Shown: one piece after another, positions 33,855-64,000 of the stretch
How positions within the stretch are numbered: the stretch's first letter is position 1
How the letters are laid out: each line of letters begins with the position of its first letter
DNA from: Epinephelus fuscoguttatus
Lineage: Eukaryota; Chordata; Actinopteri; Perciformes; Serranidae
NCBI RefSeq assembly: GCF_011397635.1
Contig: NC_064761.1
Span: 40,202,143 to 40,266,142, forward strand
Direction: 5' to 3'
Length of the DNA: 64,000 nucleotides
Translations under genes and position numbers: made by a program
The notes under the pieces: generated by a model
Seen by the model: only the letters and a program-made list of their open reading frames with translations
The model's database searches: none
Told to the model about the DNA's origin: nothing

Positions 33855-34294
33855 GTTTGCCAACCAGGAGGAGGGCACTTTAGCATGCGTTTTAACCAGC
33901 CAAGAGGGCAGTTTAGTGTGATTTTTGGCTCCAAAGAGGGCACTTTAATGTGCGCTTTGGCTCCCAGGAGGGCATTTTGGCTGCCAAGAGGGCACTTTAG
34001 CGTGCGTTTTGGCTCCCAGGAGGGCATTTTGGCTGCCAAGAGGGCACTTTAGCGTGCGTTTTGGCTCCCAGGAGGGCATTTTGGCTGCCAAGAGGGCACT
34101 TTAGCGTGCGTTTTGGCTCCAAAGAGGGCACTTTAGCGTGCGCTTTGGCTCCCAGGAGGGCATTTTGGCTCCCAGCAGGGCACTTTAGCGTGCGCTTTGG
34201 CTCCCAAGAGGTCATTTTAGCGTGCGTTTTGGCTCCCAGGAGGGCACTTTAGCATGCGCTTTGGCTCCCAAGAGGGCACTTTAGCGTGCGTTTC
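33855..34294 (+). repeat. GC-rich minisatellite
   Basis: Tandem alternation of two short modules, gcactttagcgtgcg followed by ttttggctcccaggagg, and gcattttggctgccaagagg. They give a repeating unit of about 52 bp in the centre and shorter variants at the edges. It is preceded by a (gaat)n run at 33833-33850. Confidence 0.9.
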
Positions 34295-48003: not shown

Positions 48004-51000
48004 ATGCACTCTGATGCGGCAAGTAAGTAGTAACGTTATAGAGGCTTTTCTGCATCAAATTACGAATCTTCACGGATGCTGCAGAGTGTGTCGGAGAGAC
48101 GCAAACAGACGCTTTGTGTTTCTACATCTACTTTTAGCCCGTGTTTCTGTAGGATTAGATGGGAACGTATGAATTCCGTGCTATTTGGTGGTCCCTTTGT
48201 ATTTGCCTGTGCTGTCTTGGGCGACAACAAAGGAAAGATAGCTAGTGTAATTTCAGTTGTTTGGACCTGCAGGAGGTTTGATCCGACTCGGCAGCCTCTG
48301 TGGAGTTAATTTTTTGTGTAGCGTTAGCAGTGCTCAGCTGAATGCAGCCGACGTTAGTTAAATCCAGAAGGTTTTCGATGGTAATCGGTGCGTTGTGATG
48401 TTTATATCCATCATTACTGAGGATGCACAATGGGTTTCAACTCAAACTTAGGGTGAACGTAATGCCAGTGTAAATAGGTCAATTTTCTGGTCAACTGCGG
48501 ACTATTACAGAGAATGAAAATTGTGACGCAGTTGTGTAAAACATCTTTGACTGCCTGCTGCAGCAGTGCTGTCGGGCTTTGCGGCACATACATCAGCTGC
48601 TGCAAAACGTCTGCGCAATGGTTATGTGCCAGTAGGCAAACGATGTTAGATTTTTTTTAAGACAATGTAAAACGCATTCAATCAGTAGGGGTAAATGTTG
48701 GTGGGGTAGAGGGGTCTGAGAGAAATAGTTGTTTTGTTAAGCCTTGGGAATTGTAGTTTAGTTTCCCAACCAGCGCTGAGTTGTAAATGGCCTCTTTAAA
48801 GGAAATGGACTACAACACCCATACGCCCAACTCTCTAGATACTTTGTAAACTCTGTGCAAGTTGCGCGTCTGCACTGCTATTTTAGGTATGCAGCTAATG
48901 CTATCTGGTCGGCAGTGTGTTTTTTGTCTGGTTTGGCCGATTGAAATCAATTAAAAGCAACGGGATTTGATGACAGCCTTTAAACGGAGTTGCACAGATG
49001 ACATTTGGAGACAAGGTAGCATGCATTATCAGATTTGATCGAGTTTGCATGTCTGTCGAGGAATGCAGAGAATCACTCCCTCATCCGTGTGAGATATTAT
49101 TCTGTCGTTCTCTCAAAGTTTAACCCTTAAAATAGAAATCTAACGAAAGTCAGCTGATCATTGTGGAGACTTAGTGATTACTAGCAAAAGATTACAAATC
49201 ATAGCTTCCTGTTGGTGCTACGGTGATGTCACCTTCTTGTACCCTTGTACCAAGCTAATAAGTTTAATTAGGAGCAGAAGGCTGTGTGTTATGCTTTAGT
49301 TTAATTTCTGCTGTTATCTTTATTCTCTGTGGAAATAGATTTACAGCTGAATTCCCACTTGACTACACTGGCCAGCATCCATAAGATCCACCACACCTTG
49401 CACAGGCTGGTAAATACATATTGGCAGCTTGTGCATTTTGTGTATTTTAGGTTTGTTTATGTGTGTGTATGTGTGTGTGTGTGTATGTGTGCACTGTACA
49501 AGCTTGTGGTATCTGTTTTGATAGAACCTGACAGAAGACGTTGGACAGGATAGCCACCCCTCAGGTAATAACTCAGCTGGTCCTTGTGTGTTTTGTAGAC
49601 GGCATAAAACACTGTCACGGCTGTCATGACAAGGACAGTTGTGCATTAAGCCAGTGCCAAAACAACGTGTCGTTCTGCTGGATCTTTGAGAGCTCATGCA
49701 TGTTTAGCAAGTGAAATAATCTGTGTGTTGCTTATCCGTAGCCGTCTCTCATTCTGCCCTGCACTTGCTTCCCTAGCTTGTTGCTCGAGAGCCATGCCTC
49801 CTAGGAAAAAGAGGAGACCCTCTGCTGGAGATGACATGTCAGCCAAGAAAAGTCGGCAGGACAGGTGTGACATTCATTTCTTAAATATTCCAAAAATTGG
49901 TCACTTCAGTCTGTGTCAGTTATGCAGGAGAAATTGATTATTGTGGCTTATTAAAGAGGAATGCGGCATGAAGTTTTGAGTTTGCAGCCGTAATAAGAAA
50001 AGCCTTTTTTAAATCACATTGACCACTTTTGAAATTCTCTACTTTACAAGCAGTGCGACTGCTGAGCTTGTGACCACAACTCTCTTTTCATCGGCAGTGT
50101 TTTCAGAAAACATGAAACGTCACAAATCCGCGAGGAGGAGACATTTTCCAGTAAAAGATGCCTGGAGTGGTTCTATGAATATGCAGGTGACATTTTATGG
50201 CTTAAAGCAGTGGTTCCCAACTGGTCCAGCCATGCAGTCCAGATTTCTTCTTAGTCATTAGTTCATGGTCCACACAGCTTAATTTATTCAGTGTCATACT
50301 TGCGTTTGGCCATGTCATCGAGCTGGTTTGTTGTCTCTTTTCAAGTAGCTGTCTGTTATTCGTGTCACTCATTCTACAGCAGGAAACAGCACTTTAAACT
50401 AAAATCTCTGCGCTGGAAATTCCCTGTTCTTCAAAATGAAGTGTGCTTTTTGCTAAATTGACACATTCGTGAGTCACTTGCGGTCCATTCAGGAAGGACC
50501 TGAGACCCACTTTTGGACCACAACCCACCAGTTGGGAACCGCTATTTTAAAGCATTGTGCCAGCAAATCACTCCCCTCACATCATCATGACACATTCTCA
50601 GTTTATTGGCATTTTACTACCGATCAGAACACGCAGCTTCACACTTGTCTGTCTGTCCAAAATAGGCTGTGATGACGTGGTGGGTCCAGAGGGCATGGAG
50701 AAGTTCTGTGAGGACATTGGAGTGGAGCCAGAGAACGTAAGCAGAATTCCCGCCTTTTAGTTACGTCTGTTTGGTCTCAGTTTGCTCGCTAGAGGCGGCT
50801 AGTCAAACTAAGCAAGCAATGTGGACGCGTTTTTGGCTGTGGTAACGTGATGGGCATTTCTCATAATTCTTTAAGTGATATATAAAAATGAACAGTTTGC
50901 ATAAATTAGTTAGTAACACAAAAATATGAAGACCTAGCTTCACTTCAAGGTCATTACTTATTTACGCTCATTCTTTGTTTCAGGGGTTATTGAGGTCAGT

Positions 51001-54000
51001 TGTTTTCTGTGTTTCGATGTAATAGACTTGTCATTTCAGTTAACAGATTGATAATATGCATTGACACATGTTTTGTTTAAGGACATCTGTAGCTATAAAG
51101 GTTCTTGTCTGTGCCCAGGTGGTGATGCTGGTTCTTGCTTGGAAGCTGGATGCCCAGAGTATGGGATATTTCACTCTTCAGGAGTGGCTGAGAGGCATGG
51201 GCTCGCTGCAGTACGTCAGTTACCTACTTTTTGTCTTTTCCAATGCTGTTTTCAAGATTGATTGTTGCCTTGCTGTGTTTTCTCTGTCTCTAGTCATGTC
51301 TTTATCGAGTGCCCTTGGTACCCAGTTGAGCAGGTAGTGAAGTGTAGAGTATGTCTAAGGCATTTTTCTGCTGTTGTCAGGTGCGACTCCACAGAGAGGC
51401 TGAGGAACTCGCTCGACTACCTGAGATCTGTCCTAAATGACAGCACCAGTTTTAAGCTCATTTATAGATATGCCTTTGATTTTGCTCGGGTGAGTAAAGC
51501 AAAGTCTTTCTTTCTGAAACAAACTGAATTCAGTTCATTTGAATGATAAAATCCCCGTCGGAAACAGTTGTTTTTTAAACGCACCTGATTAAAATTCTTA
51601 TGAGGTCTTACTCAAGCCAATGTTCAGAACAACCTCAATGTTTTAAGGAGGTCAAGATAATTTTCCAGTTTGACTTTGAGTGGGAAAGCACTTATCAAGT
51701 GTGATGCCTGTTTACATAGCCTGACTTTTCTCTCACGTAGACATTAAACAATGACTTAAGCAAAGCAACCCACTCTGTTGCAGTGAATGAAAACGTGACT
51801 CAGCTACAGTGTTCAGCGACAGGTCAAAGAATTCAGCCTGTTCTGTGTTTTGGGCTAATACTGATGATAATAACATTACCAGTCTGACCCTCTGTTTAAA
51901 GTGTGGTTGACATTTTGCATTGATTTCATGAAGCTTTGGGTTGTTTTGACTGGACAGGAAAAGGATCAGAGGAGTTTGGACTTGAACACAGCCAAGTGTA
52001 TGCTGGGGCTTCTTCTGGGAAAGACGTGGCCGCTGTTTCCTGTGTTTAATCAGTTTCTAGAGGTAAGCGTCATGCTCACATATGTCCTCTACAACATTTT
52101 ACCAAATCGGAGGTGTCTCATACTGTAGTTAAATATATGACTGTTTGAATTCCTGTTTGACTTGACTAAAAGCCCAGACACACAATTGACATTAAGAAAC
52201 TAGTGGTGACGAAGGCTGTGTCGCCTTTGTGACTTTTTTGTCCACAAAGTTGCACCTGAACACACCGCAAATGACTGTCCATAGCAGGTGGTGACAGTAG
52301 TCTGTATTCATCATTAAAAAAGAGGCACCAACAGGTCAGATTCAAGACGCTAGTTAGCCAGTTAGCTTTTAAGAACCACAACCTGTTGGTGAAAGAACAA
52401 ATAATATATACCCGAGGAGGTCAAAAAAGGGAGAAGGCACAGCGTCATATCACACATCATATCAATGGGGTACAACGCATGGTCATTGAAATCTGGTCTG
52501 CAGTTGCTGAAAGGCTCAATAGCTGGCACACTGTCATAGAACATGGGGGTGATTGATTGGTTTCACTGAGGCGCCTGCAGTCGGACTTGAATCGTAATAT
52601 TTTTGTATGAAAAATAAGGATTTGGGTTAGAATCAAGTTCTGCAGCCATTGAAAAACTCTGTGATAAAAGACCATAAACAAATGCTTTCTATGTGAAAAC
52701 CTTCTGTTGTACATCAGCTGTCATCCATTAGTTGTACCCAAAAGCATGTAGCTACCAAAGACTGCGGTCAGAGACTACAGTATGTTCCATCCTTCTTTCA
52801 ATAGCCTTGTATTTACTGTGCGCTAGCCAACAGTAGCAAACAGTTCCAAACCATTGCTGCTAAAGAGCTGAACGGCCGAAAATGCTAAGCTAGAGGCTTC
52901 AAAATGGGAGTCCACAAACCAAGGGGTGATGTCACGGTAGCTAAGTCCATTATTTTTACAGTCTATTGCTAAAACAGAACATCTCAGACAGAGGATGAAT
53001 ACGGATGTACCAGCTCAGACAGTATGAAGTAAAGAAAATGTTTTTTGAACATTAAAGCATGAAAAAATGTTCTAGTAGAAACCAGAAATATAAGTATGAA
53101 CCTAAAAGCATGCATAATATGCCCCTGTAACTTACTGTAACTAGAGAACATACTCCTTTACTAAATATTATCATTCACGTGATGACATGTAGCTGATTAA
53201 TTCAGACTGTTTACAGGACTTCTTTAACATTTTGAGGAAAACACTTTGCTTCCGTGCTTATAGGAGACGCAGATTGATACCTTTCACATGTCTGTACATT
53301 AAATATGAAGCTAGAGCCAGCAACTGGTTAACGTGAAAGCTGAAACCATGTGCGGAAAATAAAACTCTACCATCTTAAAATGGGATTACTCCAGCCATGA
53401 TAGAGCAATCCATAATTTAAGGCCCAGACGCACCAAGCCAACACCAAACTATTGGCGACGAAGGGCAATTGTTGTGTTGCCTAATGTCGCCTATGTCTCA
53501 GCCAAAAAGGAGCACATGAACACACCTTAAAGTCTACAGCCAACGGCCAACCAGCATGTACGTTCTGCACCTACATGCAAGGAAATAACTTTCTATACCA
53601 GTGGATGCAGTAGTCTGTATTCATCATTAAAAAAGAGAAACCAGAACTGGTCAGGTAGGATTCAAGATGCTAGTTAGCCAGTTAGCACCTTAACAACACA
53701 ACCAGATGCTGAGAGAACAGAGGAAATGTACTGTAAGCTAGCGAAAAATTAACACAGTTATGAACTGTTTCTGCTGAAGATCTCAGTGGCTAAAAACATA
53801 ATCGTACCTAATATGACACAATTGTTTCGAATTGAGGCCCTTTTGATTTTAGCCATTTGTTTACTTTCCTCACTTCCGTTTCTCTTCTCGTGTACTGAGC
53901 TAAACTGCCAATCAGAGTGATTTCATTCACCGGCGGACCACGCTGTCTCCAACACTGATTCAACATGCTGAATCGGCTGATAAAAAGCCGACTGGTGCCA

Positions 54001-54395
54001 GTGGTGCTGAACACACAGCAAAAACTAGGGCAACAGATGCTCACCGTTTGAGCTAAGGCTGACCGCTGGTTTGGTGTGTTAGGGCCCTAAATGTTGCTGC
54101 ACTGTATTAATTGAATGTATTTGTTTATTCTTCCTCAGCAATCCAAGTACAAAGTCATCAACAAAGACCAATGGTGCAATGTTTTAGAGTTCAGCAGGAC
54201 AATCAACCTGGACCTCAGTAACTACGACGAGGATGGTGCCTGTGAGTGAACACATATCAACGTGACAGTGACATTCATGTGAGTGTTACGTAAATTGTTT
54301 TTCTAATCTCTTCTACTCTGTCTTTTCTTTTTTTTTCAGGGCCAGTTTTGTTGGACGAGTTTGTGGAATGGTACAAGGAAAGACAGATGTCATAG
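48004..54395 (+). CDS. dcun1d4: dcun1d4 (DCN1-like protein 4)
   Basis: DCUN1D4 is a nuclear DCN1-family co-E3 that binds cullins and the acetylated N-terminus of UBE2M/UBE2F to promote neddylation. Eleven exons join to 843 nt: 48004-48022, 49339-49409, 49525-49564, 49777-49864, 50098-50186, 50666-50736, 51119-51210, 51381-51489, 51958-52062, 54139-54241 and 54340-54395. All boundaries are GT-AG. The 280-residue product starts MHSDAANLQLNSHL and has a basic nuclear signal PPRKKRR at residues 51-57. The DCUN1 domain runs from about residue 90 to the end and includes [28 protein letters not shown] and [18 protein letters not shown]. The Ala and Asp of the DAD cullin-binding patch are present in the last motif. 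It matches human DCUN1D4 rather than DCUN1D5 through the N-terminal QLNSHL...IHKIHHTL and MPPRKKRRP segments. It is about 12 residues shorter than human, mainly before the PPRKK motif. Confidence 0.96.
48746..48822 (+). promoter_or_regulatory. ZNF143-like motifs in dcun1d4 intron 1
   Basis: The sequence gggaattgtagt (48746-48757, complement actacaattccc) is an exact match to the ACTACAATTCCC core bound by ZNF143. About 50 bp on, actacaacacccat is a weaker version in the other orientation. They lie about 0.75 kb downstream of the start codon. Function is inferred from motif only. Confidence 0.45.
49455..49492 (+). repeat. interrupted (GT)n tract in dcun1d4 intron 2
   Basis: GT dinucleotides with several GTAT interruptions lie about 30 bp upstream of the acceptor of exon 3. 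Confidence 0.85.
50208..50544. mobile_element. hAT-like MITE in dcun1d4 intron 5
   Basis: Left end cagtggttcccaactggt and right end accagttgggaaccgcta (complement tagcggttcccaactggt) are near-perfect inverted repeats. Flanks gcttaaag and ttttaaag agree at six of eight positions. The insertion starts 21 bp after the exon 5 donor. Confidence 0.8.
52168..52395 (+). mobile_element. truncated copy related to 53417-54090
   Basis: It shares gcccagacacac, gtctgtattcatcattaaaa, and ctagttagccagttagc with the element at 53417-54090, in the same orientation. No matching right end was found. Confidence 0.55.
53215..53350 (+). repeat. second copy of dispersed repeat seen at 3478
   Basis: The stretch gcagattgatacctttcaca, tgtctgtacattaaatatg, aagctagagccagcaactgg matches the repeat at 3478-3700, with decay. 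Confidence 0.55.
53417..54090. mobile_element. MITE with ttaaggccc inverted ends
   Basis: Left ttaaggcccagacgcacca and right tggtgtgttagggccctaa (complement ttagggccctaacacacca) are inverted ends. The TTAA at the left and CTAA at the right edge would fit a decayed piggyBac-type target duplication, but this is uncertain. Confidence 0.6.
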
Positions 54396-56589: not shown

Positions 56590-56620
56590 CTTATATTGTT
56601 CATCGATAAGATTTTATTAA
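56590..56620 (-). terminator. probable polyadenylation signal of the minus-strand repeat-protein gene
   Basis: On the complement, AATAAA within ccttaataaaatc (about 56611-56618) is the first such signal downstream of the stop codon at 56936. It lies about 150 bp from the dcun1d4 signal, so the two genes converge tail to tail. Confidence 0.5.
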
Positions 56621-56935: not shown

Positions 56936-59900
56936 TCAGACTTCACTAATGTTCACGTTAGAGGAGTCGAAATAGACCGCCAGGTTTTGTGACGTAAGTG
57001 AAGAACTTGTTGATTCCTCTGTCTGTCTGCTCTGTTGCAGATAAGATCTGGTGCCTTCCAACCCTTGTGTCTTACTGCTCTGTGGAAACCTCCGTGACAG
57101 CCCTACTGCCTCATATGGTGGTGGTGGTGTTGCTGGAACAGGAGGTGGAGCCCTCTGTGGTGGTTCAGTATCTCCCATGTCATGCCTTCTGTAGCGAGGA
57201 ATGTCGTACAGCAGATCTTTAGCTCCTCTCTCATCTACTGAAGTAGAGGAGAGACGTAATTGTGGTAGTGGCTGTTTGGCCAGGGGCTTGACATCCTCCT
57301 CAGACCTGCGATAGTTAAAACTGGTGTCATCAAATGCAGGAGATGCTCCCTTATCTAAATTTCTCTCTACTGTGTCCCACTTTTGTCTCTCCGTTGACAT
57401 GGCTTTTAGGGCACTGAGGCCTTTCCTTTTATTTGTGTCCTCAGATAAAGCCCTCAGAAGCTCACTTGTGCTGCTGGGTGGGCTGTCAAACTTGTCAAGA
57501 GCTCTGCTGGATGCAAGAGAAACGCCACTGGCACTAAGAGATGAGTGTTTATGCGTCAGTGTCACATATGCCTTCCCTTTGTCTTGTTTTATGTTATCAT
57601 CACTTTCACTGCTGGAGGAGTCAGGTGGGGGACATTCTGGCTTTGCAGGTGGAGGCTGCTGTGGAGATGATACGCCTACATCCGGATGTCTCCTTGGACC
57701 AGGAAGGGAATGGTCAGGAAGCTGACGGCCAACACCAGTCCACCTTATCTCAGGTGGAACGTCTAAATCTGTGGTGCTTCTGGACTGCTCAAGCCTTTTC
57801 TTTACTACATCATCAAAGCTCATACTGGGAACTCTCTTTGGGGAAAGAGACGCATCTCTGTCTCCCACACTGTGAAATGGACCTCCTTGTGTAACAGTTA
57901 CTATTTCAGTCCCTGTATATCTTTGTTTTGTGTGGTCTATAGTTTGATCCATGCCACTGGGGGTGAAAGAATTACCCAGAGGCGTTGACGGTTTCATAAT
58001 TAAACGCTTATATGTGATTAGATGGTCGTTGTCTATCATTCCTGACATATTGGATGGATATCTGCTTTGGTTTGCAGTGGTTTGTGTCACCTCATTTTCA
58101 CTCTCACTGCTGGAGGAATTACTTGGCTCTGGTGATGGCGCCTTGATATCCAGACGCCTCTTTACACGTGGGACTCCGAGACTTAGGTCAGGAACACTAT
58201 GGGCTATCGTCTCATCCTCACTACTGCTGCTGGAGGATGATTCCCTTTGTAACGGTGCTCTGATATCCAAAGTCCTCTTGACATGGGGGATATTGGTGAG
58301 ACTCAAATGGGGGTGGACTGAAGGAGACTCCTCTGATGTTTGGCCTCTGAGCTCTGTCCCAGCCTTCCTCTGCACTTTGTTTTTGGTGGTTACAGATGAT
58401 TCTGTGTGTATGATTCCTTGAATTCCAACTCCCTCTCTCTTTTGTCTTGTTTTGCTGCTTTTGCTCCCAGTCCCACTTTCACTGCTGGAAGACGAGGGGG
58501 AGTCAGGTGGAGGTGATGAGGGCAGATTTGGTGGTTCACGTGTTTGCGATGTGATTTCAAGACGCTTTCTGAATCGGGAGATGCCAAGATCCATTGTTGC
58601 CCATCGTGACTGGAGTTCTGGGTTTATCTCTGGCGGTCTGCTGATGTTGTCACCTGTTTTTACCCCCACATCATCTGTAACAACTGTATACTTTTCTAAT
58701 TTGATATTGTGGTCTGCCTTTGGGCGGTGAGAATTGTTTATCAGTGGGGTCTTTGGTGTTGTAATGAACTCCTTTTCCATGGTCTTTAATGGGGCAGATA
58801 CTCCCAGTCCTGCTTTAGCTTGGTCTCTGAGCTCATCCTCACTGTTGCTTCTGGAAGAGTATGATTCAGATTGTCGAGAGCTTGGAGACACACTACTAAG
58901 AACCAGATCTGGTTGTGCTGATGGTGCTTTGATATTCAAACGCCTCTTGACAGGAGGGACGTTCACTTTCAAGTCCGGCATCTTTCCTTCTGGTCTATGA
59001 CTTGTAATCCCCACATCTGTTTTAGGTGGGTTTGTAGTCCCACTTTCACTCTCATCACTGCTGGAAGATGACTCAGATGGAGGTGAACGTGCCCTGATAT
59101 CCAGGCGCCTTTTGACATGGAGGTCACTGTTGAGATCCAGTGTAGGCCATCTTGAATCTGGTTTTACTGTTGGTGGGGGGTATCTTAAATTTTCAATACT
59201 CTTCTCTTGCTCATCTGAGCTGCCTGATGAGTGACCTGGACTAATTTTGATAGCTTCCTCTCTCTTTCCTTCCATTGTATGATTTGTACTTCCACCACTT
59301 AATAATGAATCAGGAGGTGGTGATGGGGCTTTAATGTCTAAACGCCTCTTGATGCGAGTAATATTACCGAGATCTACGGTTGGCCACTGTGTTTCTGGAT
59401 CACGACTCACTGTTTGAGATTCTTGAAATGGAGGCCCTACAACTCCCACCACCCCTGGCCTCGCTGTCTTTGTGGAGAGTGTTGTTTCATCCTCGCTGTC
59501 ACTACTAGAAGATGAATCAGAGACTGGTGATGGTGCTTTGATATCTAGACGCCTCTTGATGCGCAAATTATGCTCGAGATCAAGAGCAGGCCACTGTGAT
59601 TCTGGATCCTGATTTATTGTTTGAGATTTTTGTAATGGAAGCTCAGCAAAGGTTATCTTCCCTGGCCTCTCTGTGTGGTGTGTTGTTTCATCCTCACTGT
59701 CACTACTTGAAGATGAGTCAGTGTCAGGTGATGGTGCTTTGACATCTAGACGCCTCTTGACATGTTTCGTATGCTCAAGATCTAGGAGAGGCCATTGTGT
59801 TTGTGGGTCATAACGTACAGTTTGAGATATTTCAGTTGGAGACCTTGCCATGTGTGTCTCTCCTTGCTCCCCTTTCTTAACTTGGTATGTTGTTTCATCC

Positions 59901-62900
59901 TCACTGTCACTACTTGAAGATGAATCAGAACTTGGTGGGGGTGCTTTGATATCTAGGCGCCTTTTGACACGCATAGTATGCTCAAGATCTACGACAGGCC
60001 ACTGTGTGTCTGGATCACGACTTTCTGCTTGAGATCCTTGAGATGGATGTCTTGAAATGTGTACCTTCCTTTGTTCACATTTTTCCACTATCTCACAACT
60101 AGAGGGTGGCTCAAAAGGGGGTGATGGTGCTTTGATATCTAGACGCCTCTTAATACGAGGAATATGCTCAAGATCTATGGAAGGAAACATTGTGCCAGGG
60201 TCATGACTTCCTGTTTGAGATTTCTCAAATGAAGGCACTGCAAAGTCCACCCCTGTTGGTGTCTGCTTTTTATTATGGCCTGATGTTTCATCCTCACTGT
60301 CACTACTGGAAGATGAGTCAGAGTCAGGTGATGATGCTTTGATATCTAGACGTCTCTTGATGTGTTTAGTGTGCTGAAGATCAAGGAGAGGCCACTGGGT
60401 TTGTGGGTTATAATGTGCAGTTTCAGGTACTTTACTTGGTATCCATGCCATGTTCATCTGCCCTTGTTCCTGCATGTTTATATGGTTGATTGTTTCCTCC
60501 TCACTGTCACTACTAGAAGATGCGTTAGTTGGCGGTGGTGGTGCTTTGATATCCAGACGCCTCTTGATGTGCATTGTCTGCTCAAGATCAAGGGCAGGCC
60601 ACCTTGTGTCTGGATCATGACTCTCTGTTCGAGATTCTTGAAATGGAAGTCCTGTAATCTCCACCTTTCCAGTCCTCTGTATGTGGTGTGTTGTTTCATC
60701 CTCACTGTCACTACTAGAAGACGAATCAGGTGGTGGTGATGGTGCTTTGATATCTAGACGCCTCCTAATGTGAGGAATACGCTCAAGATCTATGGAAGGA
60801 AACATCAAGCCTGGATCATGACTTTCTGTTTGAGATTCTTGCAATGGAAGTCCTGCAATCTCCACCTTTCCTGGCATCTCTGTGTGGTGTGTCGTTTCAT
60901 CCTCACTGTCAGTACTAGAAGATGAATTAGGTGGTGGTGATGGTGCTTTGATATCTAGACGCCTCTTGATGTGAGGAATATGTTCAAGATCAAGGGCAGG
61001 CCACCTTGTGTCTGGATCACGACTCTCTGTTTGAGATTCTTTAAATGAAAGTCCTGTGATCCCCACCTTTCCAGGCCTCTGTATGTGGTGTGTTGTTTCA
61101 TCCTCACTGTCACTACTAGAAGATGAGTCAGAGTCAGGTGATGGTACTTTGACATCTAGACGCCTCTTGATGTGTTTAGTATGCTGAAGATCAAGGAGAG
61201 GCCATTGTGTTTGTGGGTTATTACGTCCTGTGTCAGATACTTTACTTGGAGGACTTGCCATGTTCATCTGTCCTTGCTTGTGCTTGTTCATATGGTTGAT
61301 TGTTTCATTCTCACTGTCGCTACTAGAAGATGAATCAGGTGGTGGTGATGATGCTTTGATATCTAGACGCCTCTTAATGCGAGGAATATGCTCAAGATCA
61401 AGGGCAGGCCACCTTGTGTCTGGATCATGATTTCCTGTTTGAGATTCTTGCAATGGAAGTCCTGCAATCTCCACCTTTCCTGGCATCTCTGTGTGGTGCG
61501 TCATTTCATCCTCACTGTCAGTACTAGAAGATGAATCAGGTGGTGGTGATGGTGCTTTGATATCTAGACGCCTCTTGATGCGAGGAATATGTTCAAGATC
61601 AAGGGCAGGCCACCTTGTGTCTGGATCACGACTCTCTGTTTGAGATTCTTTAAATGAAAGTCCTGTGATCCCCACCTTTCCAGGCCTCTGTATGTGGTGT
61701 GTTGTTTCATCCTCATGGTCACTACTAGAAGATGAGTCAGAGTCAGGTGATGGTACTTTGACATCTAGACGCCTCTTGATGTGTTTAGTATGCTGAAGAT
61801 CAAGGAGAGGCCATTGTGTTTGTGGGTTATAACGTGCTGTGTCAGGTACTTTACTTGGAAGCCTTGCCATGTTCATCTGTACTTGCTCCTGCTTGGTGAT
61901 ATGGTTTACCGTTTCACCCTCACTGTCACTACTAGAAGATGAATCAGGTGGTGGTGGTGGTGCTTTGATATCTAGATGCCTCTTGATGTGCATTGTCTGC
62001 TGAAGATCAAGGGCAGGCCACTTTGTGTCTGGATTATGACTTTTTGTTTGAGATTCTTGAAATGGAAGTCCTGTGATCTCCACCTTCCCAGGCCTCTGTG
62101 TGTGGTGTGTTGTTTCATCTTCACTGTCACTACTGGAAGACGAATCAGGTGGTGGTGATGGTGCTTTGATATCTAGACGTCTCTTAATGTGGGGAATGTG
62201 CTCAAGATCTATGGAAGGAAACAATGTGCTTGGATCATGACTTCCTGTTTGAGATTCTTGCAATGGAAGTCCTGCAATCTCCACCTTCCCTGGCATCTCT
62301 GTGTGGTGTGTTGTTTCATCCTCACTGTCAGTACTAGAAGATGAGTCAGAGTCAGGGGACGGTGCTTTGATATCTAGACGCCTCTTGATGTGTTTAGTAT
62401 GCTGAAGATCAAGGAGAGGCCATTGTGTTTGTGGGTTATAACGTGCTGTGTCAGATACTTTACTTGGAGGCCTTGCCATGTTCATCTGCTCTTGCTCCTG
62501 CCTCTTAATATGTTTCGTTGTTTCATCCTCACTGTTGCTACTAGAAGATGAATCAGGTGATGGTGTTTTGATATCTAGACGCCTCTTGATGTGAGGAATA
62601 TGCTCCAGATCTAGGGCAGGCCATTGTGTATCTGAATCACAACTTGCTGTTTGAGATACTTTAATAGGAAGCCTTATCATTTGCATCTCTCCTTGCTTCT
62701 GCTTCTGCTCCATTGTTTTATTTGCACTCTCATCACTAGAAGAATCAATAGGTGGCAATGGGGCCCGCCTCTTAATGGTAGTAGCAGGGGCAGGATCTAG
62801 AGCAGGACATTGTGGCTTCATGGCATCATGGGTTACAGATTGCCCTGCTATGTTCACCTCTCCTTGTTCCTGCTTCTTTGTGTGATTTGTTGTTTCATCC

Positions 62901-64000
62901 GTACTCTCATCACTAGAGGATGAATCAGAAGCTGGTAACGGGGTTTTGATATCTACATGTCTCTTAATTTGGGGGATACATATGCGATCCCGGTCAGTTG
63001 ACAGTCTTTCTGCCTTCTTGATTTTGATGCCCTCATTCAATCTGCCAATACTGTGTTCCACCTTTAGGTCTTTGATTTCTGCTTCACTCTCACTGCTTGA
63101 AGAGGATGGATAAGCAGCAGAGGGTGAAGGTGCTCCAGTGTCCAGACTCTTACTGTGACTGGTAACAACCAAACTGGGTACTTGCCCTTTTTTAACTGTG
63201 TAGTCCTCCACATCACTGTCACTGGAATGAAAGGAAAAGGAATCCTCTGGTCTCACTACAGGCCTTTGCTTGTCGTAACTGTAATCAACCTGATTAAATC
63301 GCACTGTAGGCCTGATAGAGTCTACACTGTGGATCTGCTGTTCAAAACTAACACCCTGTTTAAGGCTAGCGTTAGTGACCTCAGGGTTATTGTGCTTCCT
63401 TTCTTTATCCTCCTCCTCCTCCTCCTCTTGGTCTGAGTTCACAGTGTACTGTGTGGGCTCATCCTCACTGACATGTGAGCTAGAGCTGGACGAATAATCT
63501 GTCCTCTGTTTATCAGAAATGGGCACCAAAATCAGTTTTGAATCATTAAAAGAACCGCGCACACTGCTGGACCTTGCAGACGAACTATGAAGAGAATCAC
63601 TAAACTCAAATTGTTCTTCATTCTCCTGCCACAGTTCAGGGTCTGTAATGTTGGTGTTGTTTGTATGTGGTGACCAATCTGCAAAGGGCTCTGAAGAAAA
63701 TCCAGGAAGTTTACTTGTGCCCTCTACAGAAATTTGTGACACCTCTACTCTGACATCTGTTGAGGAGTCCTCTGCCAGCTGATGAGACTTTGTTGCTGCT
63801 TTCTGAGTCATTTGGTCCTCATTGAATACTTTGTCAGATCGTGAAGAATCTGAGCAAGAAGACAAGCTTCTCCTCTTCTCCTGCTCAACAGGGTCTGGGA
63901 TGTGTTCAAACTCTATGCTGTGTGTGTGGCCTCCTGAGAGTACTGTGCCATCTCTCTGGTTATCCTCTGTTATACTCAGTCGTACGCTGTTTTCACTTCC
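56936..64000 (-). CDS. large Ser/Asp-rich tandem-repeat protein, partial; lrrc66 position
   Basis: One exon is open without a stop for 2,354 codons from the right edge to TGA at 56938-56936, so the start lies outside the window. No methionine is needed at 63865 because the frame continues upstream (VRLSITEDNQRDG, EFEHIPDPVEQEKRRS). The core is about 24 copies of a unit, W-P-x-[LV]-D-L-x4-[HR]-[IV]-K-R-R-L-D-[IV]-K-[AV]-P-S-P, then an SSSSSDSEDE acidic block and a variable linker. Seventeen units spaced about 190-208 bp apart fill 59.3-62.6 kb. The C-terminus is proline-rich with a PPPPY motif. There is no membrane segment or known enzymatic domain in the visible part, which looks disordered. 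The acidic Ser blocks fit casein-kinase-2 sites. LRRC66 is the next gene after DCUN1D4 in human, and a Ser-rich cytoplasmic tail would suit it. I do not see leucine-rich repeats here, so the assignment rests on position. Confidence 0.85.
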   Translation of the reverse strand, partial: GSENSVRLSITEDNQRDGTVLSGGHTHSIEFEHIPDPVEQEKRRSLSSCSDSSRSDKVFNEDQMTQKAATKSHQLAEDSSTDVRVEVSQISVEGTSKLPGFSSEPFADWSPHTNNTNITDPELWQENEEQFEFSDSLHSSSARSSSVRGSFNDSKLILVPISDKQRTDYSSSSSSHVSEDEPTQYTVNSDQEEEEEEDKERKHNNPEVTNASLKQGVSFEQQIHSVDSIRPTVRFNQVDYSYDKQRPVVRPEDSFSFHSSDSDVEDYTVKKGQVPSLVVTSHSKSLDTGAPSPSAAYPSSSSSESEAEIKDLKVEHSIGRLNEGIKIKKAERLSTDRDRICIPQIKRHVDIKTPLPASDSSSSDESTDETTNHTKKQEQGEVNIAGQSVTHDAMKPQCPALDPAPATTIKRRAPLPPIDSSSDESANKTMEQKQKQGEMQMIRLPIKVSQTASCDSDTQWPALDLEHIPHIKRRLDIKTPSPDSSSSSNSEDETTKHIKRQEQEQMNMARPPSKVSDTARYNPQTQWPLLDLQHTKHIKRRLDIKAPSPDSDSSSSTDSEDETTHHTEMPGKVEIAGLPLQESQTGSHDPSTLFPSIDLEHIPHIKRRLDIKAPSPPPDSSSSSDSEDETTHHTQRPGKVEITGLPFQESQTKSHNPDTKWPALDLQQTMHIKRHLDIKAPPPPPDSSSSSDSEGETVNHITKQEQVQMNMARLPSKVPDTARYNPQTQWPLLDLQHTKHIKRRLDVKVPSPDSDSSSSSDHEDETTHHIQRPGKVGITGLSFKESQTESRDPDTRWPALDLEHIPRIKRRLDIKAPSPPPDSSSSTDSEDEMTHHTEMPGKVEIAGLPLQESQTGNHDPDTRWPALDLEHIPRIKRRLDIKASSPPPDSSSSSDSENETINHMNKHKQGQMNMASPPSKVSDTGRNNPQTQWPLLDLQHTKHIKRRLDVKVPSPDSDSSSSSDSEDETTHHIQRPGKVGITGLSFKESQTESRDPDTRWPALDLEHIPHIKRRLDIKAPSPPPNSSSSTDSEDETTHHTEMPGKVEIAGLPLQESQTESHDPGLMFPSIDLERIPHIRRRLDIKAPSPPPDSSSSSDSEDETTHHIQRTGKVEITGLPFQESRTESHDPDTRWPALDLEQTMHIKRRLDIKAPPPPTNASSSSDSEEETINHINMQEQGQMNMAWIPSKVPETAHYNPQTQWPLLDLQHTKHIKRRLDIKASSPDSDSSSSSDSEDETSGHNKKQTPTGVDFAVPSFEKSQTGSHDPGTMFPSIDLEHIPRIKRRLDIKAPSPPFEPPSSCEIVEKCEQRKVHISRHPSQGSQAESRDPDTQWPVVDLEHTMRVKRRLDIKAPPPSSDSSSSSDSEDETTYQVKKGEQGETHMARSPTEISQTVRYDPQTQWPLLDLEHTKHVKRRLDVKAPSPDTDSSSSSDSEDETTHHTERPGKITFAELPLQKSQTINQDPESQWPALDLEHNLRIKRRLDIKAPSPVSDSSSSSDSEDETTLSTKTARPGVVGVVGPPFQESQTVSRDPETQWPTVDLGNITRIKRRLDIKAPSPPPDSLLSGGSTNHTMEGKREEAIKISPGHSSGSSDEQEKSIENLRYPPPTVKPDSRWPTLDLNSDLHVKRRLDIRARSPPSESSSSSDESESGTTNPPKTDVGITSHRPEGKMPDLKVNVPPVKRRLNIKAPSAQPDLVLSSVSPSSRQSESYSSRSNSEDELRDQAKAGLGVSAPLKTMEKEFITTPKTPLINNSHRPKADHNIKLEKYTVVTDDVGVKTGDNISRPPEINPELQSRWATMDLGISRFRKRLEITSQTREPPNLPSSPPPDSPSSSSSESGTGSKSSKTRQKREGVGIQGIIHTESSVTTKNKVQRKAGTELRGQTSEESPSVHPHLSLTNIPHVKRTLDIRAPLQRESSSSSSSEDETIAHSVPDLSLGVPRVKRRLDIKAPSPEPSNSSSSESENEVTQTTANQSRYPSNMSGMIDNDHLITYKRLIMKPSTPLGNSFTPSGMDQTIDHTKQRYTGTEIVTVTQGGPFHSVGDRDASLSPKRVPSMSFDDVVKKRLEQSRSTTDLDVPPEIRWTGVGRQLPDHSLPGPRRHPDVGVSSPQQPPPAKPECPPPDSSSSESDDNIKQDKGKAYVTLTHKHSSLSASGVSLASSRALDKFDSPPSSTSELLRALSEDTNKRKGLSALKAMSTERQKWDTVERNLDKGASPAFDDTSFNYRRSEEDVKPLAKQPLPQLRLSSTSVDERGAKDLLYDIPRYRRHDMGDTEPPQRAPPPVPATPPPPYEAVGLSRRFPQSSKTQGLEGTRSYLQQSRQTEESTSSSLTSQNLAVYFDSSNVNISEV
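58100..63000 (-). repeat. coding tandem array, ~67-residue unit within a ~609-bp higher-order unit
   Basis: Basic KRRLDIK-type motifs recur near 58143, 58262, 58560, 58930, 59097, 59333 and then roughly every 200 bp to 62571, with decayed ones near 62765 and 62948. Unit types alternate. Those with QMNMARLPSKV...NPQTQWPLLDLQHTK recur every third unit, giving near-identical DNA 609 bp apart (for example atggtactttgacatctaga at 61141 and 61750). Outer units are diverged, central ones homogenised. Confidence 0.9.

Follow-up and report, generated by a model that had tools for sequence, protein, structure and literature searches.

A tandem array of apparently selected modules in the probable last coding exon of lrrc66 of Epinephelus fuscoguttatus

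The minus strand of a 64,000-nucleotide stretch of Epinephelus fuscoguttatus DNA (assembly GCF_011397635.1, contig NC_064761.1, positions 40,202,143 to 40,266,142; the window) carries at 56936..64000 an open reading frame of 2354 codons plus stop, about half of which is a tandem array of a short module. This frame is a real coding sequence, both by its openness and by the constraint acting on it. We consider it reasonably probable that it is the last coding exon of fish lrrc66 and that it encodes a disordered, membrane-anchored, multivalent docking tail, a reading in which the gene identity, the membrane placement, the phosphorylation and the partner are all deduced. According to this proposal, the tail would be cytoplasmic and at least 2,354 residues long, and three parts would make up the repeated docking module: the hydrophobic [WF]Px[LIV]DL segment, the basic, RxL-type IKRRLD[IV]KAPSP core, and an acidic serine cluster of the CK2 type. 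Partners of a single class would be collected by many weak copies of one short motif, phosphorylation of the acidic clusters would adjust the binding, and a PPxY motif together with a PDZ-type C-terminus could tie the tail to WW- or PDZ-domain proteins. Disordered multivalent repeat tails are a known kind, and the present one is most likely the expanded motif array of an LRR protein that has a name but no characterised function. Since the core is constrained amid freely evolving linkers, it offers a defined short peptide as bait for its partner, and the dependence of binding on motif number could be studied with the natural array.

The frame is open from position 64000, the window edge, to a stop codon at 56936-56938, and the two remaining minus frames contain 100 and 270 stops in the same stretch. 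An earlier description of this DNA, made by a model from the letters and a list of open reading frames (the sequence-only reading), had reported a frame kept over 2,354 codons, which we confirmed, and had called the product a single-exon protein; the single open frame stands, but it continues beyond the window edge. A noncoding reading was set aside on two grounds: over 7 kb, one of the three frames of the minus strand has no stop, and variation peaks at third codon positions in two parts of the module, the core (0.167) and the acidic block (0.215), against 0.068-0.121 at the other positions. In the linkers, variation at the three codon positions was 0.336, 0.250 and 0.270, so that the third was not the highest. 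The first of six AATAAA/ATTAAA sequences found up to 3 kb past the stop, a possible poly(A) signal, lies on the minus strand at 56613..56618, 317 nt downstream of the stop. The encoded part is rich in Ser (15%), with Pro, Asp, Thr and Glu also abundant, and the charge-hydropathy line, the measure by which a disorder-like protein is indicated, put 2079 of 2304 windows of 51 aa on its disordered side. No transmembrane-like stretch was detected within the 2,354 residues (maximum 19-residue hydropathy, KD19, 0.42).

Tandem Repeats Finder, which is blind to periods above 500, reported a 201-bp period at 59305-62661 (score 2675) and an overlapping row of 408 bp, that is, two units (score 2515); with these scores, a chance origin of the repeat is excluded. 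Using the repeat finder, alignment and profile, we delimited a tandem block at 58949..62623 on the minus strand (aa 460-1684), which represents 3.7 kb out of the 7.1 kb of the reading frame. It contains 18 modules, most of them 67 or 69 aa long within a range of 62-79 aa. Units were counted from the W/F-P segment, and the end of the last one was placed by us; the alignment (A1) has 19 rows, the first being unit 2 repeated with its flanks and the others the 18 units. The unit consensus is WPxLDLEHxxHIKRRLDIKAPSPPxDSSSSSDSEDETT, followed by a variable linker. Residues P2, D5, L6, R14, L16, D17, P23, S30 and one linker Pro are invariant in all 18 units. Charge alternates along each unit, averaging close to −1 for the W segment, +3.0 for the core, −4.6 for the acidic block and about 0 for the linker. 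The first segment conforms to [WF]Px[LIV]DL in every block unit, KRRLD[IV] is present in 16 of 18, and an SP directly past the core in 15 of 18; 12 of the units have a run of SDSE, SNSE or SDHE. Minimal CK2-type sites, [ST]xx[DE], number 46 in the acidic blocks of the 18 units, from 0 to 3 per unit. The module had been described as a strictly kept W-P-x-[LV]-D-L segment with KRRLDIK and SSDSEDE. The pairing of core and acidic block does recur, but the exact strings occur only 13 and 7 times, respectively, in the whole protein, and the first segment is less strict than claimed, since WPx[LV]DL is found in 15 of the 18 block units, FPSIDL in the other 3, and the W in one of the six copies outside the block.

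The order of the modules suggests a higher-order repeat of three units, a feature that had passed unnoticed in the sequence-only reading. From the identity matrix we assigned units to classes A (units 1, 4, 7, 11 and 14), B (2, 5, 8, 12 and 15) and C (3, 6, 9, 10, 13 and 16), so that units 1-16 (59387..62623, minus strand) run in the order A-B-C five times, plus one extra C (unit 10). Mean DNA identity was 0.82, 0.84 and 0.81 within classes A, B and C and 0.70, 0.71 and 0.78 between classes, with overlapping ranges (between-class values reached 0.876, for B-C, and within-class values fell to 0.704, in C). Identity is 99% between units 5 and 8 and 95% between units 6 and 9, and therefore units were probably duplicated in blocks; units 3 and 10 share 92% identity. 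Copy number in 59387-62623 may differ among individuals, given the apparently recent block duplication (units 5 and 8).

To look for copies outside the block, we made a profile of 37 columns out of the 18 block units, which gave 29 rows against the protein. The block units scored 61-78 bits, and three clear extra copies, all decayed and, like every copy described here, on the minus strand, scored 30.6-41.2 bits: aa 342-370 (IPQIKRHVDIKTP..., 62891..62977, 30.6 bits), aa 1897-1931 (IPHVKRTLDIRAP...SSEDET, 58208..58312, 31.6 bits) and aa 1943-1970 (VPRVKRRLDIKAPSP..., 58091..58174, 41.2 bits). Two weak decayed modules were found at aa 399-422 (62735..62806, 5.4 bits) and aa 1681-1703 (VPPVKRRLNIKAPS, 58892..58960, 9.5 bits), and inspection of the sequence added a core-only decayed copy at aa 1811-1817 (58550..58570), where RKRLEIT comes after WATMDL. 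Six further rows (aa 171, 286, 495, 1589, 1828 and 2123; −6.5 to 8.8 bits), which mostly cover the acidic part alone, were left out of the count. The earlier figure of about 24 units is thus fair if the decayed copies are included (18 + 3 + 2 + 1), but full tandem modules number 18. Of the six outside copies, five lack the Trp and one retains it, in WATMDL. The core remains recognisable in all six of these dispersed copies, with L lost in one (KRHVDIK) and LDI in another (KRRAPLPP).

To compare the parts of the module, we computed pN/pS by Nei-Gojobori counts over all unit pairs, with bootstrap intervals, for two sets, the 18 units and units 1-16. The core, IKRRLDIKAPSP, gave 0.23 (0.10-0.47) for the 18 units and 0.30 (0.11-0.81) for units 1-16; the acidic block gave 0.47 (0.30-0.71) and 0.33 (0.19-0.56), and the linkers 0.95 (0.74-1.23) and 1.03 (0.73-1.51). 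WPx[LV]DL alone gave 0.58 (0.12-1.59) and 0.83 (0.16-3.78), intervals wide enough to fit either constraint or neutrality, and the five-residue spacer 0.56 and 0.49, although its sequence is unconserved. When the core, including WPxLDL, was joined with the acidic block, pN/pS was 0.41 in both sets. The contrast between this joint region and the linkers was matched in 0 of 5000 column-label permutations for the 18 units and 4 of 5000 for units 1-16; the corresponding counts were 0 and 61 for the core with WPx[LV]DL alone, and 12 and 3 for the acidic block alone, but unit pairs are non-independent and these counts are not exact probabilities. Within classes, the contrast of core and acidic block with the linker was present but weaker. 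In class A, pS/pN was 0.269/0.075 in the core, 0.272/0.080 in the acidic block and 0.255/0.196 in the linker; in class B, the core of which shows little synonymous change, it was 0.114/0.050, 0.103/0.041 and 0.338/0.257, and in class C 0.185/0.068, 0.361/0.179 and 0.206/0.215. The modules look selected because pN/pS is 0.41 in core plus acidic block versus 0.95-1.03 in the linkers, in line with the earlier claim of selection on a repeated element whose core is held while the linkers drift. The comparison of dN/dS between units that had been proposed as a check was thus carried out as pN/pS among paralogous units, and its value for core plus acidic block is not near 1. The evidence for selection is good but not final, since unit pairs are non-independent and synonymous change is itself somewhat reduced in the core (pS 0.30 vs. 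0.42 in the linkers and 0.21 vs. 0.32, values as low arising in 224 and 426 of 5000 permutations).

The same data bear on the alternative that the array is a coding minisatellite in a permissive tail, multiplied by unequal exchange within a disordered region, with a unit number and content that serve no specific function. The linker pN/pS of about 1, the turnover by block duplication with the three highly identical unit pairs, and the drift in length to units of 62 and 79 aa are what such a process would leave. Against it are the pN/pS of 0.23-0.47 in core and acidic block, the rarity of permutations that reproduce the joint contrast with the linkers, and the core still visible in the dispersed copies. 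We regard this explanation as rather unlikely, and the docking array as the reading to be preferred.

No named domain had been known for this consensus, and our searches agree, as they returned no convincing match in Pfam, NCBIfam or PDB. With the whole protein, the Pfam family PH_SLA1 (PF24081) obtained 59.5 bits with 0 stretches above the curated cut-off, and on single unit rows it matched 1 of 19 (E 0.18, 12.6 bits vs. a cut-off of 27); it was rejected as a score summed over repeats, in which no single stretch passes. F5_F8_type_C_2 was also rejected (whole protein, E 0.5). The 19 unit rows matched four Pfam families, one row each, with a best E of 0.032. The whole protein matched 0 NCBIfam families at E up to 0.1 and 0 PDB sequences at E up to 1, and the unit profile gave one PDB match, with E 2.4. 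Among viral contigs, the whole protein gave 8 pattern matches and among bacterial and archaeal contigs the unit alignment gave 5, of which 0 were confirmed in either case. A literature search for KRRLDIK-type strings at the start of a word matched a zyxin paper.

The gene was named from its neighbourhood. Three plus-strand pieces at 51065-52128 matched PDB 5v89, DCN1-like protein 4 (E 1.3e-12, 1.1e-16 and 2.8e-17), which was the sole PDB match for each of them at the cut-offs used, and further pieces located with short patterns, from 49347 to a stop at 54393-54395, are presumably also DCUN1D4. From its first piece that could be recognised to its stop, this plus-strand gene covers about 5 kb (49347-54395); it is convergent with the repeat frame, whose own stop lies at 56936 on the minus strand, so that the two adjoin. 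The sequence-only reading had not noticed this neighbour. In Pfam searches on eight neighbouring reading frames, Cullin_binding was matched with E 0.00084 and 20.2 bits against a cut-off of 27.9, and Srg with E 0.071 and 13.2 bits against one of 22. Minus-strand pieces at 2844 and 12448 (SSITIDPELKPGEFVIKSLFAEFAV; DSVFFEISIKSLLKSWS) we take to be 5' exon pieces of a FRYL-like gene; the one at 2844 had no match in PDB. OCIAD genes are expected between FRYL and DCUN1D4; short patterns found neither OCIAD nor SGCB in the 64-kb window, which weighs against the lrrc66 reading, although SGCB, on the far side of LRRC66, would fall past the window edge. LRRC66 (leucine rich repeat containing 66) has leucine-rich repeats and one transmembrane segment. 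The window holds neither feature for the gene of the repeat frame, and therefore the name lrrc66 rests on position.

A human marker map gives the order DCUN1D4-LRRC66-SGCB-SPATA18 (PMC10497502), and a table places DCUN1D4, LRRC66 and SGCB all on human chromosome 4 and zebrafish chromosome 20 (PMC3757083). In a long list of salmon genes reported to be under selection, FRYL, OCIAD1, OCIAD2, DCUN1D4, LRRC66 and SGCB appear interleaved with others, an arrangement that does not imply adjacency (PMC6786245). Zebrafish lrrc66 (ENSDARG00000093370) is described as functionally uncharacterised and induced by pneumococcus infection (PMC9858863). Because the frame adjoins DCUN1D4 and LRRC66 stands beside DCUN1D4 in human, we identify the frame, with fairly high confidence, as the last coding exon of lrrc66. 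The likeness to the known gene lies in this map position and, in zebrafish, in the chromosome shared with DCUN1D4 and SGCB; the difference is that the LRR part lies outside the analysed window. The exon would then encode the cytoplasmic tail of the LRRC66 topology given above. Among the LRRC66 literature matches listed, none was by its title a study of molecular function, and a search for papers linking LRRC66 to the brush border found none.

A scan with 19 regular-expression patterns, counted against shuffled sequences, detected three single sites near the C-terminus, all on the minus strand: YDIP at aa 2265-2268 (57197..57208; 1 vs. 0.3 in shuffles), PPPY at aa 2293-2296 (57113..57124; 1 vs. 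0.1) and a C-terminal SEV at aa 2352-2354 (56939..56947; 1 vs. 0.1). YDIP would be a possible phosphotyrosine (SH2) site; PPxY is a WW-domain ligand type, and a C-terminal SEV a class I PDZ-ligand type. The constrained pieces of the module have the size of short linear motifs, and together with PPxY and SEV they would suit a membrane-anchored multivalent scaffold. Other patterns of the same scan were not retained: the clathrin box, with 1 match (0.8 in shuffles), PP1 RVxF 1 (0.6), dileucine 1 (2.3), YxxPhi 4 (4.2), YxxP 2 (2.2), 14-3-3 type 1 (3.0), PxxP 23 (21.7), PPPPP type 1 (0.0), FP4 0, and the loose MAPK D-type pattern 9 (3.7).

The acidic blocks invite comparison with two kinds of protein. 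Furin-type CK2 acidic clusters are SDSE(D)E-like and occur in the tails of membrane proteins. The likeness lies in such a cluster in a cytoplasmic tail, which is here a probable one; the difference is in number, one in furin and, here, an SDSE/SNSE/SDHE run in two thirds of the units. A literature search on the furin acidic cluster found no paper. CK2-type phosphorylation may tune the charge, and thereby the binding, of the putative scaffold. In a study on protein pyrophosphorylation, the modified sites are mostly CK2-primed acidic serine stretches in disordered regions, for example in NOLC1 and TCOF1, and the proteins are mostly nuclear or nucleolar (PMC11427299). By analogy, the acidic blocks are candidate pyrophosphorylation sites. 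This resemblance also raises the alternative that the frame belongs not to lrrc66 but to another protein, located in the nucleus or nucleolus and of the NOLC1 (Nopp140)/TCOF1 (treacle) type, in which basic segments alternate with CK2-phosphorylated acidic serine clusters. The charge alternation is present in each unit, in agreement with such a protein. The module differs from those proteins in its defined W/F-P segment and fixed RxL core. However, the only nuclear-signal pattern tried, K[KR]x[KR], had 0 matches in the 2,354 residues, the PPxY and PDZ-type ends would fit a membrane tail, and the genomic position fits lrrc66. We therefore find this identity quite improbable.

Another possibility is that each core works as a cyclin-docking RxL (Cy) motif, so that as many as about 20 cyclin-CDK complexes would dock on the tail, or the tail would be their substrate at its SP sites. 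The Cy pattern, [RK]xLx(0,1)[FYLIVMP], is present in all 18 block units, and the SP sequences past the core would agree with the second option. The core KRRLD[IV] resembles the cyclin-binding peptide of E2F1, PVKRRLDL (PMC4381256), and this similarity, which had also escaped the sequence-only reading, may be taken as a lead. The present case differs from E2F1 in its approximately 20 repeats, its probable membrane tail and its single full CDK site. RxL had 8 matches outside the block, where shuffles gave 4.2; since four of these matches are decayed module cores, there is no further excess. SP/TP sites (37) were fewer than in shuffles (50.9), and the one full [ST]Px[KR] CDK site against 6.3 in shuffles also weighs weakly against the idea. 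In addition, RxL is short, the copies in an array are not independent matches, and a membrane tail would be an improbable site for cyclin A or E. Cyclin docking is thus very improbable in our view. Combining these resemblances, one could picture a receptor tail whose approximately 20 E2F1-like cores and CK2/pyrophosphorylation-type clusters would form a surface-tethered sink or switch, counting cyclin-CDK or 5PP-InsP5 signals by valence, but we hold this to be highly speculative and scarcely probable.

The first segment could also be an LC3-interacting (LIR, WxxL) or a calcineurin PxIxIT-like docking site, which would make the tail an autophagy or phosphatase scaffold; its presence in all block units and the 37 LIR and 23 loose PxIxIT matches (13.6 and 3.5 in shuffles) point that way, but a Pro in second place is unusual for LIR, a Leu in fifth place deviates from PxIxI[TV], the matches are copies of one event and one site may count repeatedly in the LIR pattern, and the Trp is missing from most dispersed copies, so that we judge this highly improbable. 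LxVP-like sites numbered 3 in the protein.

Elsewhere in the window, a tRNA scan returned 0 genes, and a composite minisatellite was found at 33902-34293. It consists of nested 20-, 32-, 52-, 64- and 84-bp units around TTTTGGCTCCCAAGAGGGCA, and contains an 83-codon open stretch on each strand.
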